Below, one piece after another: positions 1-11,837 of a stretch of DNA of 64,000 nt (positions are counted from its first letter, which is position 1; every line of letters begins with the position of its first letter). Below the pieces are notes generated by a model. It was given only the letters and a program-made list of their open reading frames with translations, made no database searches and was not told where the DNA came from. The stretch is taken from assembly GCF_012844345.1 (NCBI RefSeq), contig NZ_CP051625.1, positions 1,984,001 to 2,048,000 on the forward strand. The letters are read 5' to 3'. Both the position numbers and the translations under genes were made by a program. The DNA comes from Pseudomonas sp. gcc21. Lineage in GTDB: Bacteria; Pseudomonadota; Gammaproteobacteria; Pseudomonadales; Pseudomonadaceae.

Positions 1-280
1 TCACGACGATGGCCGCCATGGTGCCGGTGGTACCGGTGGGATAGTGAATGGTGCCGCCACCAAATCCGCTAACCAGCCCGGATACCCGGGAAGTACGTAC
101 CGAGTAGGGACCGTTGCGCGCTTCCAGCATGCTTTCGGTCGGATCAGGTCCACGCTGGTACTGATCGGTATCGCCTACGGGCGGGGGTGTCGGGTTGCCT
201 GCCATGGCAGATGCAGAAAACAGCAGCGCTCCAGCTGCAAGCATCGAGAGGAACGACTTTGACATTTTATTGTTGTTCAT
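1..280 (-). CDS. Secreted PETase-like polyester hydrolase, copy A (partial)
   Basis: The N-terminal 93 residues of a second polyester hydrolase, cut by the window edge. It starts at the ATG ending at 280 with a CGGAG Shine-Dalgarno just upstream. The signal peptide ([10 protein letters not shown], a leucine/alanine-rich core, then SAMA) and the mature N-terminus ([27 protein letters not shown]) are almost identical to the complete copy at 678-1580; the main difference is a short stretch right after the signal peptide. The reading frame is open to the edge. The two genes are tandem paralogues on the same strand about 400 bases apart. Catalytic residues lie outside the window, so activity cannot be judged. 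Confidence 0.9.
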
Positions 281-329
281 TGCGACTCCGTTTGCTTCGC
301 GTGTTTATCGTGATTCTGCCGCTGCCATT

Positions 330-343
330 TGTCCTGCAGGACA
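330..343 (-). promoter_or_regulatory. Leader hairpin upstream of hydrolase copy A
   Basis: A perfect 14-base inverted repeat, TGTCCTGCAGGACA, about 50-63 bases upstream of the copy A start codon. Copy B has a GTCC...GGAC hairpin at the same distance (1626-1641) with a different loop. It could be a 5' mRNA stem or an operator. Function is inferred. Confidence 0.4.
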
Positions 344-397
344 GCGAACACCGACGGAGTCTAGGACGCTAAATTCGGGGGTCAATGGCTCAAGGGC

Positions 398-430
398 AAT
401 TCCACCCGTATGGGTTAAACCAAAGCGTGA
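398..430 (-). promoter_or_regulatory. Conserved palindromic element upstream of hydrolase copy A
   Basis: An imperfect palindrome (TTCCACCCG, two bases, TGGGTTAA) followed by CCAA and CGTGAC. It aligns with 1695-1727 upstream of copy B, where the palindrome is perfect. Both lie about 120 bases upstream of their start codons, while the sequence between has diverged more, apart from a shared GGAGTCTAG (356-364 and 1654-1662). This is a candidate binding site for a shared dimeric regulator. Confidence 0.5.
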
Positions 431-638
431 CCCTCATCACGCGCTGTAAGCCTTTGATTTCAAAGCCCAATATAATTGATATCAACAAGCTACTAGCGAC
501 CCAGCATGGCCGCTTTTCAGAGACAGCGCCTATATCAAATGAGTCAGGGATTATTGAGGTCGATGCAGCTCGCTGGCATTTTCTGGAACCGGGATGGCAC
601 CCGGAAACGCAGCGCCCGGTAGCCGCCGCGCACAAAAC

Positions 639-665
639 TGCGGCCCCCTTAGGGGGCCACAGTCT
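639..665 (-). terminator. Rho-independent terminator after hydrolase copy B
   Basis: A GC-rich hairpin (GGCCCCC, TA, GGGGGCC) read on the minus strand just after the stop of the complete hydrolase gene and followed by GCAGTTTTG. It suggests that the two hydrolase copies are separate transcription units. Confidence 0.7.
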
Positions 666-677
666 CAAACCGCTAGC

Positions 678-1580
678 TTACGGACAGGTACTGCGGAACT
701 CATCGATATTGCGGTCACGCTCGTGGTCAGGGCCGCAGACGAACTGGAGGTAACGCTGGTCCTTGTCCAGATGCAGCTTCATCCAGGACACACCCAGACG
801 GCTCAGCTGATCGTTGAAGCGATTGTCACCGTTACCGCAATAGTGGGTGCCGTTATTCAACTCGACAAAGGCTTTCGACAGCCCGCTCGGCAACTGCTCA
901 TAAAAGCGATCAGCATGCTGACGCACCGGCGCGATAACGTCTGATTCACAGGCAAATATAAGTGTAGGTGCCTGAACGTCACTGAAGCGGGTTGTATCCC
1001 ACGGCGCCAACGGAATAGCGGCGCTGATGCGCCCTTCCGACGCCACACGCAGCGTGCCACCACCGCCCATGGACCAACCCACAACACCCAGACGGTTGAT
1101 GTCGATCATGCCGTTAATGGGACTGCGCGAGGTGTTGGTCTCATCCACCAGATAATCCAGCGCGTTGTTGATCTGGCGCGCGCGGCTCGGCGGCTGATCA
1201 AAACCGGTGTTGGTATCGATGGTCATCACCACGAAGCCGTGCGAAGCCAGCTTCGGCCCCCACCACTCGATGGATGACTCAGCCGAGACAAACCCCGGAA
1301 TTACGACGATGGCCGCCATGGTGCCGGTGGTACCCGTGGGATAGTGGATGGTGCCGCCACCGAAGCCGCTCACCAGCCCGGAAACGCGGGAGGTGCGAAC
1401 CGAAAAAGGCCCGTTGCGTGCTTCCAACATGCTTTCAGTCGGGTCTGGCCCGCGCTGATATTCATCGGTGACATCTTCAGGTGGAACGGTCGGGTTGCCA
1501 GCCATGGCAGATGCGGAAAATAGCAGCGCTCCAGCTGCAAGCATGGAGAGGAACGACTTCGATATATTTTTGTTGTTCAT
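678..1580 (-). CDS. Secreted PETase-like polyester hydrolase (cutinase family, type IIa)
   Basis: A 300-residue alpha/beta hydrolase that by family hydrolyses ester bonds of aliphatic and aromatic polyesters (cutin-like polymers, PET) outside the cell. A signal peptide ending near AMA-GN precedes the mature enzyme. The nucleophile elbow is GWSMGGG (Ser170); the other triad residues are Asp214 (ACESD) and His246 (GTHYC). The oxyanion/aromatic clamp is PGF (Phe97) and WSMGG, and the wobbling Trp is Trp194 (APWD). Four Cys (211, 248, 282, 299) match the two disulfides of type II PETases, including the extra one beside the active site. Tyr247 after the His and Phe97 place it nearer type IIa marine pseudomonad enzymes than Ideonella PETase (Ser and Tyr there). 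CGGAG supports the start. Actual activity on PET is inferred from the family. Confidence 0.92.
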
Positions 1581-1641: not shown

Positions 1642-1694
1642 CGAGCACCCGAGGGAGTCTAGAAGCCGGTTCTCAATGTTCAACGTAACCAGGG

Positions 1695-1727
1695 TGATTT
1701 CACCCGAACGGGTGAAGCCAATCGTGA
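1695..1727 (-). promoter_or_regulatory. Operator-like palindrome upstream of hydrolase copy B
   Basis: A perfect 18-base palindrome TTCACCCGAACGGGTGAA at 1699-1716, followed by CCAATCGTGAC. It lies about 120 bases upstream of the hydrolase start and matches the element at 398-430 upstream of copy A. A transcription-factor operator controlling both hydrolases is the simplest reading; the regulator is not identifiable here. Confidence 0.55.
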
Positions 1728-1793: not shown

Positions 1794-3278
1794 TTACAGC
1801 GAACCGCGCTTCCAGGGTCCCCAGATCGCAAAAGTGATACCCGGCGTCTGCACGTTAACAAACAGAAAATGCCCGCTGGGATCGAAACACGCGCCGGCAA
1901 ATTCCCGGTTGCGGTAGTCACCACCCGGCACATTTTTGCCAGCCGAAGCAGCCTCTACATCATTGAAGACGATGTTGTTCTTGGCAAAAATGTACGACTC
2001 GCCCCGGCTTGTCAGGCCGACCAGGCGCTCGCCGAATCCATAGTCGTCCAGCACTCCACCGCCGTCTTCACACAGCAATACGCCGCCGCGCGGGCTGACG
2101 GTAATGTTGTCCGGATTATTGGCGATGATCGAATCATTCGAGGCGAAGATGCAGCGGATGCGGTCGGTCTTGAGGTCGTGCATCCACACGCAGCCTTCGC
2201 CCTGCCCTTCACGCCCCTGGCTGTCGCGTCCGGCGCTGGTATCTACGATGTACGCCTTGCCCTGGTGATACCAGATGCCTTCGCCGCGACTCATGGTCAG
2301 CCCGCCCGCGGCCTTGGCCTGGGAGTACGGGCCACTGGCGCTGCCCTGCGGAGCTGCGTCCGGGTCTGCAATGTCCACCCATTCCAGCTCATACTCATCA
2401 CCGAGCTTGGGTGCCAGCAACATGGCGCCGTCTACACCTTTGACTTTCGCCGCCTGCAGCCGGCCCCCGTCTTCCAGCGCGCCCGCACGCTGGCTGGTGT
2501 TATCCGGGATGAAGCGGTAATAACCTGCGACGTTCCGCTGATCTTCAGTCTGATAGACGATGCTGGTGCGCGGATCAACGCAGACAGCTTCGTGCCTGAA
2601 GCGGCCCATCTGCACAATCGGCTGACCAGTGGTTTCATCGGCCTTCTGGCGCACTTCGAACACATAGCCATGCTTGCGCCCGCCGGACGCCGTGAGGTCG
2701 CTGGTTGTTTCCTCACAGCTTAACCATGTGCCCCAGGGCGTTACACCGCCTGCGCAATTGACCAGCGTGCCGCCCAGGCTCGGCTCGGTAGTCACCTCCC
2801 TGCCGATTCCGACCGGGAAACGGATAGTGGTGTTACCGCCGCCCGGCTGCTGGCCGTTGTCCAGCGCAACCGAATCGTAAACCGCTGGAGCCCCAATGCC
2901 ACGCGAGCTGCTGCCGACCTCGTGGTTACGGATGAGCACAATCTCACGTCCGCCGCGACCCTTGTTGACGCCCACCACACCCATGCCATCGTGTGAACCC
3001 GGCACCGGCTGCCCGTCGATCATCAGATCACCGGTCCAGGAAAATGTTTTGTAATGGAAACCATCAGGCAACTGCAGAAGCTCCAGCCCGGTGGTCATGT
3101 CCTTGACAGGTTTCAGCCTGCCGTAGGGCCCAGCCATGCGTGGCAACGGGTTGGCCGCATGCGCCTGACGCGTGGAGAAGGCTTGCAGAGTGGTCACGAA
3201 GGGAACAGCAGCAGCCAGCGCCATACCGCCCTTCAACAGGTTGCGGCGGCTGGTAACAGTCGTATCAGTAGTCATCAT
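1794..3278 (-). CDS. Tat-exported PhoX-family (DUF839) protein
   Basis: A 494-residue protein of the PhoX/DUF839 family, which includes calcium/iron-dependent alkaline phosphatases acting in the periplasm. The start is the ATG pair at 3275-3278, preceded by AGAGGA. It opens with a twin-arginine signal (TSRRNLLKGG, hydrophobic AAAVPFV, cleavage near QAHA). Family segments visible are the N-terminal PDGFHYKTFSW region, LIRNHEV, GGVTPWGTWLSCEET, RHEAVCVDP and a C-terminal GACFDPSGHFLFVN. Tat export fits a cofactor folded in the cytoplasm. It is transcribed alone towards the polyester hydrolases, so a functional link is not shown. Whether it is a true phosphatase cannot be told from sequence alone; many DUF839 members are uncharacterised. 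Confidence 0.85.
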   Translation of the reverse strand: MMTTDTTVTSRRNLLKGGMALAAAVPFVTTLQAFSTRQAHAANPLPRMAGPYGRLKPVKDMTTGLELLQLPDGFHYKTFSWTGDLMIDGQPVPGSHDGMGVVGVNKGRGGREIVLIRNHEVGSSSRGIGAPAVYDSVALDNGQQPGGGNTTIRFPVGIGREVTTEPSLGGTLVNCAGGVTPWGTWLSCEETTSDLTASGGRKHGYVFEVRQKADETTGQPIVQMGRFRHEAVCVDPRTSIVYQTEDQRNVAGYYRFIPDNTSQRAGALEDGGRLQAAKVKGVDGAMLLAPKLGDEYELEWVDIADPDAAPQGSASGPYSQAKAAGGLTMSRGEGIWYHQGKAYIVDTSAGRDSQGREGQGEGCVWMHDLKTDRIRCIFASNDSIIANNPDNITVSPRGGVLLCEDGGGVLDDYGFGERLVGLTSRGESYIFAKNNIVFNDVEAASAGKNVPGGDYRNREFAGACFDPSGHFLFVNVQTPGITFAIWGPWKRGSL

Positions 3279-3456
3279 CAGGTCCTCTTGGGATTCTTGT
3301 CGGGACCATGAGTGGAACACCCGCAGATGACGGAGCGGTGATGATCCTGTTTCGTTTCTTTTAAACCGGCGCAACTTGCTAACCAGTGGAAAACATTCAA
3401 GAAAACGCTGCCCCGGTCGATACAACCGACTCTGCCCGCCCCTCCTCAGGATCGAC

Positions 3457-5016
3457 ATGCGCAATAACCAACCCGTCACACAGCGCCAACACAGCTTCAG
3501 TCCCGATCAACGCCTGATTTCCACAACCGACCTCAGCGGGAAGATCACCTACTGCAACAAGGCTTTTATTGAGGTCAGCGGCTTCCCGCGGGAAGAGCTG
3601 CTGGGCAGTCCGCACAATCTGGTGCGCCACCCGGATACCCCAGCCGCCGTGTTCGAGCAAATGTGGCACGACCTGAAAGCAGGTCGCAGCTGGATGGGGA
3701 TCGTCAAGAACCGTTGCAAGAATGGCGATCATTACTGGGTCGATGCGTTCGTGACACCTTTCTGGGAGAACGGCAAGGTCGCCGGGTACGAGTCGGTCCG
3801 TATCAACGCCACCCCGGATCAGATCCGCCGTGCAGAAGCGATTTATGCCCGATTGAACAAGGGCCGCAAGGGCGTGGCGTTCGATTGGTCAGGTCTGTTG
3901 CAGCCCACTGTCCTGGCGGTGGCCATGGCTGGCGTAACCGGCGGACTGACAATGAGCTTCGGAGGCTGGGGCATTGCGTCCGGTTGTGTGCTGGGGCTTC
4001 TGGCCGGTTACGCATCCAAACGGGTAAGCGATAACACGCTGCAACGCGTGATCGATACGGCTGACAATGCAATAACCGACCCGCTGCTGGCACAGATGTA
4101 TACGCCTAATCACGGCGTGCTCAGCCAACTGGAAATGGCCATCCATAGCCAACAGGCACGGCTGCGTACCTGCCTGGCGCGGATACTCGACAGCGCTAAT
4201 AATCTGCAGGCCCAGGCCGGCGAAGCGAGCCACCTGGCCCATGGCAGCAATCAGGGACTGGCGCGCCAGCGTCAGGAGACCGACATGGTGGCCACCGCTG
4301 TAAATGAAATGGCGGCCGCAACCCAGGAAGTCACCAGTAACGTACACCGCGCCGCGGATGCGACATCCGAGGCCAGCACACTGGCCGAGCGCGGCAAACA
4401 GGTTGCCGGTCAGGCGCGTGAAGCAATCGAATTGCTTTCTGAGTCCGTGCGCTCGGCCAGCAGTGTTGCTAACCGCCTGTCCGAAGATGCCCGTGAAATC
4501 GGTGGGGTCGTCGATGTTATCCAGAGCATTGCAGAACAGACCAACCTGCTCGCCCTGAATGCTGCGATTGAAGCCGCCCGGGCCGGAGAACAGGGTCGCG
4601 GCTTCGCCGTCGTAGCAGACGAAGTGCGCGCCCTCGCCAGCCGCACCGCCGCCTCCACCGGCCAGATCCATACCCTTATCGGCAATCTGCAATCAGCCGC
4701 CAAACGCACCGTCGATACCATGCAGGCCGGACACGAGCAGGCCGAAATCGGTAGCGCCCGGGTAGTTGAAGTCGACGAAGCACTCGAAGGCATCCGCGCG
4801 GCAATCGAGCGCGTGAACGAAATGGCCGGACAGATCGCCAGCGCAGCGGAAGAGCAGAGCGCCGTCGCCGAAGAAATCAGCCGGAACATCACCAGCATTG
4901 CCGAGCTATCGGACATCACATCCACCCAATCCAACCGCAGCGCCGATCTCAGCGATGAGCTGGCTGATACGGCCAAAGCTCAAGCGGAACTGGTGGAGCG
5001 CTTCGCCCGGCGTTGA
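3457..5016 (+). CDS. Aer-like PAS-domain methyl-accepting chemotaxis protein
   Basis: A 519-residue chemoreceptor. An N-terminal PAS domain (residues about 10-115; [34 protein letters not shown]) resembles that of the aerotaxis receptor Aer, which senses redox state through FAD. Two closely spaced hydrophobic segments (about 150-190; [24 protein letters not shown]) anchor it with no periplasmic domain. The C-terminal signalling domain holds the invariant hairpin tip ([32 protein letters not shown]). It should pass energy or redox cues to CheA/CheW. The start at 3457 has CAGGA five bases upstream. It is transcribed divergently from the PhoX-family gene. The sensed ligand is not known. Confidence 0.9.
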
Positions 5017-6771: not shown

Positions 6772-7155
6772 ATGTCGCTGGAGAAGATCCAAAGCGTATT
6801 AGCCGAGCATCCAGAGATCCAGCTGGCCTATCTTTTTGGATCAATGGCCGCAGGCAGCGCAACAGCAACCAGCGACGCGGATATAGCGGTGCAAACCTAT
6901 TCACCTTTGACTGTAGAAGCCAAAATCTCCCTGGTTGAAGAAATCGCCATAGCGACCGGTCGGCCAGTAGACTTGATCGATCTGCGTAAAACTGGAGAAC
7001 CGCTTCTGGGGCAGATTCTACAGCACGGGATCCGCTTGAAAGGCGACGATACACTGCACGCCGAGCTAATGCGGCGCCACATATTCGATAGCGAAGATTT
7101 TCTGCCTTACGTGCGCAGAATGCTCGCGGAGCGCAGACAATCATGGACAAGCTAG
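6772..7155 (+). CDS. mntA: MntA-type nucleotidyltransferase antitoxin
   Basis: A 127-residue minimal nucleotidyltransferase. The signature GSX10DXD is exact: Gly23-Ser24, then Asp35 and Asp37 (YLFGSMAAGS, SDADIAV). In HepT-MntA modules the MntA enzyme adds AMP groups to a tyrosine of the HEPN toxin and thereby silences it. The gene overlaps the following toxin gene by 13 bases, the usual operonic arrangement, and stands at the left end of the accessory island. The motif and the partner make the assignment firm; activity has not been shown here. Confidence 0.88.
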   Translation: MSLEKIQSVLAEHPEIQLAYLFGSMAAGSATATSDADIAVQTYSPLTVEAKISLVEEIAIATGRPVDLIDLRKTGEPLLGQILQHGIRLKGDDTLHAELMRRHIFDSEDFLPYVRRMLAERRQSWTS

Positions 7156-7562
7156 TTATCGAGCGAAAGCTCGATTCGTTATACCGATGCCTGAACCGCG
7201 TCAATGAAAAGTGTCCGGCGAACCTAGCGGATCTTCTAGGCGACTTGGATCTGCAGGACGTAATCGTCTTGAATCTGAGCAGAGCCGTTCAGATGTGTGT
7301 CGATCTGGGCGCTCACATGCTATCCAGCCTGGACCAACCGCCTCCCAATACCATGGGAGAAACCTTTGACCGGATGGCCGATGCAAAAGTGCTGGACCGT
7401 CAGCTCGCGGACCGGATGAAGAAGTCGGTAGGGTTTAGAAATATTGCCGTGCATAACTATGATGACCTTGACTGGGCAATAGTCCATGCCATCGCCTCAC
7501 GTCATCTGGCCGATTTCAGCGCTTTCGCAGCGGTTATTGCCCAGTCTCTTGATGAAGACTGA
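7143..7562 (+). CDS. hepT: HepT-type HEPN ribonuclease toxin
   Basis: A 139-residue, largely helical HEPN-family protein (former DUF86). The active-site motif RX4HXY is intact: Arg99, His104 and Tyr106 (FRNIAVHNYDD). Family members cleave RNA as dimers and are inactivated when the Tyr of this motif is AMPylated by MntA, encoded directly upstream with a 13-base overlap. Likely role: growth-arrest toxin stabilising the island or defending against phage. It is followed by a non-coding stretch leading into the first RAYT copy. Confidence 0.88.
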   Translation: MDKLVIERKLDSLYRCLNRVNEKCPANLADLLGDLDLQDVIVLNLSRAVQMCVDLGAHMLSSLDQPPPNTMGETFDRMADAKVLDRQLADRMKKSVGFRNIAVHNYDDLDWAIVHAIASRHLADFSAFAAVIAQSLDED

Positions 7563-7773: not shown

Positions 7774-8145
7774 ATGGCACGACGCCAGCGCCTCTCTTAC
7801 CCAGGTATCGCCCAGCACGTCATTCAACGTGGAAACAACCGTCAGGTGTGTTTCGGTGACGATGAAGACATGTATATTTTCGCTCAATGGCTGACCGATT
7901 ATGCTGCCGAGTATGGTGTTGCCGTTCATGCCTGGGTATTCATGACCAACCATATTCATGTCCTCGCAACGCCAGTCGACTTCAACAGCGTTTCCCTGTT
8001 GATGCAGGCCCTCGGCCGCCGCTACGTGCGTTATTTCAACCGCCGCTATCGCCGCACCGGCACACTATGGGAAGGTCGGTATCGCTCCTGCCTTGTCGAC
8101 TCCGAGGCTTACTTGTTAACCTGTCAGAGATTAATGTTCATCTGA
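7774..8145 (+). pseudogene. REP-associated tyrosine transposase (RAYT), truncated copy 1
   Basis: The first 118 codons match the RAYT copy at 9710 with few changes (MARRQRLSYPGIAQHVIQRG, the HUH-type metal site MTNHIHVLATP, and GRYRSCLVDSEAYLL). After LLTCQR the homology stops abruptly at about 8128 and the sequence runs into the short motif TTAATGTTCATCTGACCCC, with a stop soon after. About half the protein is missing, including the conserved YIEMNPVRAG segment. About 130 bases upstream of the start are also shared with copy 2. It is a remnant of a Y1 transposase that normally mobilises REP sequences. Confidence 0.88.
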
Positions 8146-9709: not shown

Positions 9710-10403
9710 ATGGCACGACGCCAGCGCCTCTCTTACCCAGGTATCGCCCAGCACATCATTCAACGTGGAAACAACCGCCAGGTGTGTTTCGGTGACGATG
9801 AAGACATGTATTTTTTCGATCAATGGCTGCCCGATTATGCTGCCGAGTATGGTGTTGCCGTTCATGCCTGGGTATTCATGACCAACCATATTCATGTGCT
9901 CGCAACGCCAGTCGACTTCAACAGCGTTTCCCAGTTGATGCAGGCCCTCGGTCGCCGCTACGTGCGCTATTTCAACTGGCGTTATCGCCGCACCGGCACA
10001 CTATGGGAAGGTCGCTATCGCTCCTGCCTAGTCGACTCCGAGGCCTACTTGTTAACCTGTCAGCGCTATATAGAGATGAATCCTGTGAGAGCGGGCATGC
10101 ATGGTCACCGCTCCCGCCGGGTATCGCTGGAGCAGCTATCGCAGCAATGCGCATGGCAAGCCGTCAACATTGGTTATTCCACATGATCTTTACCGTAAAT
10201 TGGGCCCGACAGCTGAGAGTCGACAAACGGCCTACCGTGCCCTGTTCAGGGAACAGCTGCCGGCCGAACTTATCGAGAATATCAACCAATCAACATGCAG
10301 CGGGCTGGCTCTGGGTAATGATCGATTTCGGGACCAGATCGAGCTGCTGACCGGCAAGTTGGCTGGACGTGGGAAAGTTGGGCGACCGGTTAAGCAACCG
10401 TGA
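9710..10403 (+). pseudogene. REP-associated tyrosine transposase (RAYT), frameshifted copy 2
   Basis: A full-length RAYT gene broken by a single 4-base duplication. The frame is intact through MTNHIHV and RYIEMNPVRAGM; there the DNA reads GGCATGCATGGTC with CATG doubled, after which the frame would end at 10186. Removing four bases restores VTAPAGYRWSSYRSNA and continues to the stop at 10401-10403, giving 229 residues, normal for the family. The HUH histidines (TNHIH) and downstream residues are otherwise preserved, so inactivation looks recent. Copy 1 (7774) lacks this region. Sequencing error is the alternative explanation. Confidence 0.88.
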
Positions 10404-11098: not shown

Positions 11099-11245
11099 AC
11101 CTCGTGCACGGATAAATATATGTAGTCTTGGGACGCAACCCCACGCCTACGCCCAGGCTCGATCAGATGTCTAGCGACACATTGAGGTTCGTGAACGCGT
11201 GGGGCCGCGTTCGAGATGTTCACCCTGCCCCCGATTTCTCCAAAC

Positions 11246-11275
11246 AAAAATCCCCACACGAAGCGGGGATTTTTG
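11246..11275. terminator. Bidirectional terminator-like hairpin
   Basis: AAAAATCCCC, ACACGAAGC, GGGGATTTTT: a symmetric stem with A and T runs on either side, downstream of the GFA gene and upstream of the IS4 remnant. Confidence 0.75.
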
Positions 11276-11330
11276 TAGAGATTGGAGCGTGGCTGGATCA
11301 AGCAGTCAAACTGAGGGCAAAAGGCAAGAC

Positions 11331-11837
11331 CTGACCGCGACAACTCTGTTGGACTCTAGTGCCTATAGCGCCAAAGCACTGGCTGATCTGTATCAGCAGC
11401 GCTGGGATGTCGAGCTGTTCTTCCGTGACATCAAAACGACCATGGGTATGGACGTTCTTCGTTGCAAAACACCCGACATGGTTATGAAAGAAATTCTGAT
11501 GTATCTCATTGTTTACAACGCGATCAGGCTGCTGATGAACACTGCCGGCGAGTCAGCGAATCTCGCTAGACGTCAAATCAGTTTCAAGGCGAGCGTGCAA
11601 GCCCTTAGACAATGGGAGCCAGCTCTGAGTCGGCAGGATGTAGGCAGCAAAGAAAGGCGTCGGTTGATGGCTGCGCTGTATGAGGCGATTATTGGAAATC
11701 TCCAGATAGAACGACCCGGACGACACGAGCCCCGATGCGTGAAACGAAGGCCAAAGCCATATGGCTTATTGACGACGCACAGACATGAAATGACCGAGGT
11801 CCCCCATCGTTACCGCTATCGTGCAAAAGCAGCTTAA
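11331..11837 (+). pseudogene. IS4-family transposase, C-terminal remnant
   Basis: About 168 codons of the C-terminal third of an IS4-type DDE transposase. The YREK signature Y-(2)-R-(3)-E-(6)-K is exact in YQQRWDVELFFRDIK, carrying the catalytic Glu; it is followed by LRCKTPDMVMKE. The two catalytic Asp residues and the N-terminal half are gone, and no inverted repeats are evident. There is no credible start codon or Shine-Dalgarno. It ends at TAA 11835-11837, ten bases before another border motif, so it is a dead fragment. Confidence 0.88.

Follow-up and report, generated by a model that had tools for sequence, protein, structure and literature searches.

The polyester hydrolases of solved structure that lie nearest to the enzymes considered here (73-80% identity) are the cutinases PbauzCut (8ait, Pseudomonas bauzanensis) and PsCut (8ais, P. 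saudimassiliensis), PE-H of Pseudomonas aestusnigri (6sbn), and Ple628 and Ple629 (7vmd, 7vpa), whose structure titles name a marine consortium as their origin. The PETase of Ideonella sakaiensis (IsPETase; 6eqd and others) is more distant, with 47-50% identity. In this study, two adjacent genes for enzymes of this kind, copies A and B, were analyzed in Pseudomonas sp. gcc21, a member of the Halopseudomonas group whose genome (G000) is one contig of 3,983,233 bases. The window, meaning the whole 64,000-nucleotide stretch of DNA analyzed, corresponds to G000:C1:1984001-2048000.

It is likely that A and B are a pair of secreted type IIa PETases that arose by local duplication, were kept by purifying selection, and share a promoter box while differing in other upstream elements, the gain being one of dosage and control. 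Both genes would encode cutinase-like serine esterases, exported by a signal peptide and braced by two disulfides, which would use Ser170-His246-Asp214 in a surface cleft to hydrolyze the ester bonds of polyesters, whether polymeric or oligomeric. The tandem duplication would have taken place between the genes for PhoX and a wax-ester synthase, no later than about the time when P. profundi split off, and both copies have since been retained under purifying selection. They are probably separate transcription units, with a shared activator-like box and different upstream elements read by putative regulators. The likely benefit would be dosage plus different control of one activity, rather than new chemistry.

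Family, active site and fold of the two enzymes

Copy B is a complete open reading frame (ORF) of 300 aa with the triad S170-D214-H246 (window 678-1580, minus strand). Its residues 1-27, ending ASAMA (window 1500-1580, minus), were read by eye as a signal peptide with a putative cleavage site at that end. Copy A enters the window with its first 93 codons (window 2-280, minus), and the remainder lies to the left. The preliminary description of this DNA had allowed for copy A being truncated or lacking the triad; on the contig it is whole (G000:C1:1983378-1984280, or L009:11378-12280, minus), with 300 aa, no internal stop, the triad and all four cysteines. The head-to-tail arrangement described earlier holds for two intact genes on the same strand, B first, separated by 397 bp. 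The copies differ at 26 of 300 amino acids (92% identity) and at 133 of 903 nucleotides.

Both proteins cover the whole domain of the Pfam PETase family PF12740, copy B with 390.8 bits (E 4e-117) and copy A with 390.2 bits (E 6e-117) against a cut-off of 28; with the E-value of 1.4e-190 for copy A in the search of its own genome, these values exclude a chance match. The equivalog threshold of 520 bits for bis(hydroxyethyl) terephthalate hydrolase (NF051441) was not reached by copy B (306.9 bits), and copy A was scored there as a 93-aa piece. Copy B has the elbow W169-S170-M171-GGGG, D214, H246, W194, F97, Y247 and the cysteines C211, C248, C282 and C299. In the alignment to IsPETase, the reference stretch of which is identical letter for letter to PDB 9m8h (257/257), S170, D214, H246, W169 and Y247 are present in both copies. 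Across the 68 proteins aligned, A and B among them, neither the triad nor any of the four cysteines varies.

Under what we take to be the definition of type IIa PETases, the copies show the features of that class: the Ser-Asp-His triad with a GWSMG elbow, a Trp at IsPETase 159, the second-disulfide cysteines (C211, C248, C282 and C299 aligning with IsPETase 203, 239, 273 and 289, the bonds being predicted), Tyr247 in both copies at IsPETase 238, where the class has Phe or Tyr instead of Ser, and an extended loop after the catalytic His that aligns with IsPETase residues 237-247 without a gap. The type IIa assignment made earlier is borne out by the PF12740 score, the triad, the cysteines, Tyr247 and this loop. 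The placement in the P. pertucinogena lineage likewise stands, since H. bauzanensis and H. pertucinogena have the same genus code as the nearest named genomes, P. profundi (95%) and P. saliphila (90%).

The AlphaFold2 model of copy B has a mean pLDDT of 87.1, with residues 1-38 below 50, and the best PDB chains for this copy are 8ais, 8ait and 6sbn. PbauzCut and PsCut have the same fold (root-mean-square deviation 0.9-1.4) and 79-80% identity, differing from A and B in about 20% of residues; G003 and G022, taken as the genomes of their species, have a single copy at the fetched locus, compared with two here. PE-H is 75-77% identical to the copies and differs by two extra residues in the loop after Trp194; Tyr247 aligns with the residue changed between PE-H (6sbn) and its Y250S mutant (6scd). 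Ple628 and Ple629 share the fold at 73-78% identity. For IsPETase, Ser160, Asp206, His237, Trp159 and Trp185 correspond to S170, D214, H246, W169 and W194, and the four cysteines and the loop also align, whereas Tyr87, Ser238 and Arg280 are replaced by F97, Y247 and N291.

Membership in PF12740 is no proof of polymer activity, and the neighborhood includes WS/DGAT and patatin-like phospholipase genes, which would suit general esterases or lipases acting on a natural lipid or on an ester of short or medium chain length. We regard this as decidedly improbable: the top ten Foldseek rows consist of cutinases, PE-H, PET44 and the hydrolases Ple628 and Ple629 from the marine consortium, and the cleft residues are those to be expected of type IIa PETases, with the class definition assumed above. 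By homology, A and B are type IIa PETase-like polyester hydrolases of a known family, with a predicted activity on polymers; the pair is not a new enzyme class and gives no evidence of plastic use.

Origin of the pair

The conserved order at this locus is PhoX, PETase, WS/DGAT and patatin, and the flanking PhoX-type phosphatase gene (PF05787 match and synteny) lies at window 1794-3479 on the minus strand. Pseudomonas profundi M5 (G017) and P. saliphila (G021) have the same neighbors and one PETase gene each; the genes common to the three genomes are ADH, MCP (window 3376-5016 in G000), PhoX, WS/DGAT, patatin, HemD-like and LonB. Synonymous divergence (dS) is 0.76 for A-B, 0.73 for B-G017 and 0.78 for A-G017, and because these values are alike, duplication and species split appear close in time. 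From these comparisons, the tandem duplication is local and estimated to date from about the time of the split from P. profundi. In the 68-row protein tree, B groups with G017 (99/74). A duplication just before the split, followed by loss of A in P. profundi, is tentatively favored as the order of events.

Divergence of A and B

The differences between the copies are unevenly spread, as noted earlier, with three in residues 1-30, five in residues 31-40 and one in residues 41-93. The preliminary description had suggested that the copies might have split in substrate preference or in expression. If they preferred different polymers, the basis would lie near the cleft, where B has T245, D252, R254 and F255, and A has S245, G252, S254 and Y255; the cleft positions 254 and 255 differ, as do the nearby positions 197-201, 213, 245 and 252. 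However, among the 19 differences in residues 40-300, two fall on the 16 cleft positions, a list we take from IsPETase work, which is the level expected by chance (P 0.33), and orthologue pairs show from 0 to 5 such differences (B-G021, 2; A-G021, 0; G017-G021, 1; B-G017, 1; B-G009_1, 5). Cleft-focused divergence was not supported on this count. Six of the 19 lie within three residues of cleft positions (57 positions; P 0.21).

Sixteen of the 19 differences lie beyond residue 180 (P 0.0005), and the closest orthologue pairs have a similar C-terminal bias (B-G021, 21/26; A-G021, 21/27; G017-G021, 16/21; B-G017, 10/14), which is weaker between B and the more distant G009_1 (24/37). The sites that differ between A and B are those variable in the family (mean entropy 1.93 vs 0.85). 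In the Nei-Gojobori comparison, the nonsynonymous divergence (dN) of A-B was 0.044 and dS 0.76, i.e., a pairwise dN/dS of about 0.06, a measure that carries no information on which copy is more constrained; dN was 0.004 for codons 76-175, and dN/dS about 0.05 for codons 176-300. A split in substrate preference was not borne out, since cleft differences are not enriched and the C-terminal bias resembles that of the closest orthologues; with the low dN/dS, overall and in codons 176-300, it seems unlikely. The divergence resembles the ordinary drift of strongly constrained genes. The near-identical middle (codons 81-160) gave no support for gene conversion between A and B (longest identical run, P 0.615; 10,000 permutations).

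Promoters of the two copies

Each copy is preceded by a palindromic box on the minus strand: ACCCGTTCGGGTGAAA for B (window 1698-1713, a match to the 16-nt consensus) and ACCCATACGGGTGGAA for A (window 400-415, found by pattern search). The box, also written ACCCATACGGGTGAAATTGCC, has the core ACCC-N4-GGGT in both promoters, with CCCC in G021_1. It is followed by sigma-70-like elements, TTGACC (-35) and TAGACT (-10) for A (window 358-385, minus; promoter scan and offsets), and the weaker TTGAAC and TAGACT for B (window 1656-1683, minus; sequence and offsets); those of A pass the promoter scan. At both copies, 7 nt separate the box from CRTTGA, and in A, B, G017_1, G021_1 and G009_1 alike the -35 element TTGAMY begins 30 nt, and the -10 element TAGACT 52 nt, past the start of the box.

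The 16-nt form ACCCRTWYGGGTGRAA has zero-mismatch matches at only two places in the genome, namely at A and B. With one mismatch allowed, three more sites were found, compared with one for the reversed control pattern; one of the three is the box of copy A again, read from the opposite strand, and the other two (L165, L166) have no clear theme. In the 37 genus genomes, 38 sites matched a 21-nt form with two mismatches or fewer, compared with 2 for the control. Half of the 38 (19/38) are located 121-176 bp upstream of a PETase gene, i.e., upstream of 19 of 53 such genes. Sites with at most one mismatch are all at PETase genes (15/15), and 4 of 23 with two mismatches are. The box is not universal, being absent at this threshold from 34 of the 53 genes.

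Upstream of copy A, there is also an inverted repeat, GTGA-N6-TCAC (window 427-440, minus), which may be a CRP/Vfr-like site, given what we take to be the CRP/Vfr consensus, or a terminator-like hairpin. It begins at -160 in A, at -162 in G021_1 and at -167 in G009_1, with different spacers, and was not found upstream of B or G017_1. Shuffles of the three repeat-bearing upstream stretches yield such a repeat in 0.15-0.45% of cases. The genome has two matches to the CRP-type helix-turn-helix family (PF00325). A strong terminator-like hairpin was found by the scan downstream of A; downstream of B, a hairpin with a short T run was seen by eye and is not listed by the scan. On this evidence, A and B are probably transcribed separately.

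Of the divergence suggested earlier, the part on expression fared better. The promoters are 55% identical and the CRP-like repeat stands at A only; on the other hand, the activator-like box is shared and the repeat can be read as a terminator. Split expression is a prediction with some support, and the better-supported half of that claim. Between the copies, the control DNA has diverged more than the active sites.

A simpler view would be that the duplicate raises the amount of enzyme and nothing else, the promoter differences being drift and the repeat at A the terminator of the upstream unit. Arrays of two or three copies in 9 of the 36 PETase-bearing genomes, the near identity of the A and B proteins and the terminator-like score of the repeat fit such a dosage effect, which we consider plausible but short of an even chance. 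It accounts poorly for the identical offsets of box, -35 and -10 elements in the five promoters compared, and for a repeat that A, G021_1 and G009_1 retain, with differing spacers, and that B and G017_1 lack.

Several points weigh against the combined reading of duplication, constraint and differing control. The -35/-10 pair of copy B falls below the threshold of the promoter scan. Half of the genus-wide box sites with up to two mismatches (19/38) are away from PETase genes, and because the pattern was derived from these same promoters, its enrichment there is partly built in, while its rarity elsewhere is not. The GTGA-N6-TCAC repeat precedes only 3 of the 53 genus PETase genes, and that of copy A is also on the scan's list of terminator-like hairpins. 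For the order of duplication and split, a 16-row DNA tree prefers A+B (72/88) with B+G017 unrejected (p 0.161), and a 16-row protein tree prefers B+G017 (71/48) with A+B unrejected (p 0.415). Over the 180 bp that immediately precede the start codon, identity is 79.9% for B-G017, 55.3% for A-B, 65.5% for A-G021 and 62.2% for A-G009_1, which sides with the B+G017 grouping. Finally, the polymer activity of A and B is inferred.

PETase genes across the genus

A PETase gene with at least 65% identity was found in 36 of the 37 genus genomes searched, 53 genes in all, a count that leaves out two short pieces at contig ends, in G029 and G031. The only genome without one, G035 (92% completeness), has diverged paralogues alone, at 27-33%. 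Adjacent same-strand copies occur in 9 of the 36 (G000, G008, G009, G018, G019, G020, G024, G027 and G030), a lower bound because many of the genomes are drafts. The array of G019 has three copies, and the spacing in arrays is 265-612 bp between matched stretches. Pairs were also found in Marinobacter zhanjiangensis (L028) and Proteobacteria bacterium 005FR1 (L050), among 16 other loci (L034 being G029 again).

The protein tree holds 68 complete rows out of 71 genes found; the other three, among them a second G029 record, are interrupted by contig ends and were left out. In it, the G000 pair forms a clade with G017, and the G018 pair groups with G010 (95/98). G008 and G024 share one duplication, with copies grouping by position; the copies of G020 and G027 are mixed within one clade, and the two of G009 are in separate clades. 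Array copies are each other's nearest relatives only in G019 (100/98) and G030 (100/100). This pattern fits several duplications of different ages plus losses, and conversion in older arrays is possible. Comparison of neighbors at 43 genus loci, joined at two shared neighbors, places the genes at several different sites; the link of the locus shared by G000, G017 and G021 to the largest group depends on one two-gene pair, G010-G017.

A broader proposal is that tandem PETase arrays of one to three copies, in several lineages and at three or four loci, come and go in this genus, their members staying catalytically alike while promoters are rewired around an activator box nearly private to PETase genes. 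The scarcity of mutually nearest array copies lowers its odds, and we hold it to be somewhat doubtful. If correct, it would mean that these bacteria have a dedicated control system for sensing polyesters, one that predates plastic.

The duplication of a type IIa PETase in a known lineage is a modest finding, and the regulatory pattern is its noteworthy part. The palindromic box and the inverted repeat at one copy are testable control elements for PETase genes of the Halopseudomonas lineage; should a dedicated activator bind the box, the inducer of that activator would reveal the natural polymer that the enzymes serve. Two natural, near-identical PETase paralogues from one genome are also useful for comparing small loop differences.

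Other PETase-family genes and features of the window

The genome contains eight clear PF12740 members, five of them diverged, and two more places with borderline scores (24-26 bits). A third gene of the same type as A and B lies 1.5 Mb away (G000:C1:461432-462337, 303 aa), with 72% identity to B and 74% to A. The MHETase-like tannase family PF07519 had no match in the genome; control genomes were equally without a match, so this is not proof of absence.

Three tandem hydrolase ORFs of 295, 321 and 292 aa with a GHSQGGGG elbow (PF12740 scores 45-59 bits) are located at G000:C1:517554-520686 (L011:5554-8686) on the minus strand. The first of them matches PDB 9w68 'PETase', 9k0h, 9hl5 and 2fx5 'lipase' with E-values of at most 1e-112, and similar neighboring triplets of matches occur in G009, G019 and G034. 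A 'third type' of PETase has reportedly been described from Halopseudomonas. Two further diverged PF12740 genes (45-54 bits) are found at G000:C1:1615534-1616301 and 3623337-3624110.

On the plus strand of the window, overlapping nucleotidyltransferase (Polbeta) and HepT-like genes (window 6772-7562) have the layout known from MNT/HepT toxin-antitoxin pairs. Two closely similar IS200-like (Y1) transposase genes (window 7774-8145 and 9710-10186, plus) flank a Fic/DUF4172 gene, the similarity of the left copy fading near its 3' end. A DDE transposase ORF at window 11199-11837 (plus) matches only the end of its profile (139-199 of 200) and is perhaps an insertion-sequence remnant.
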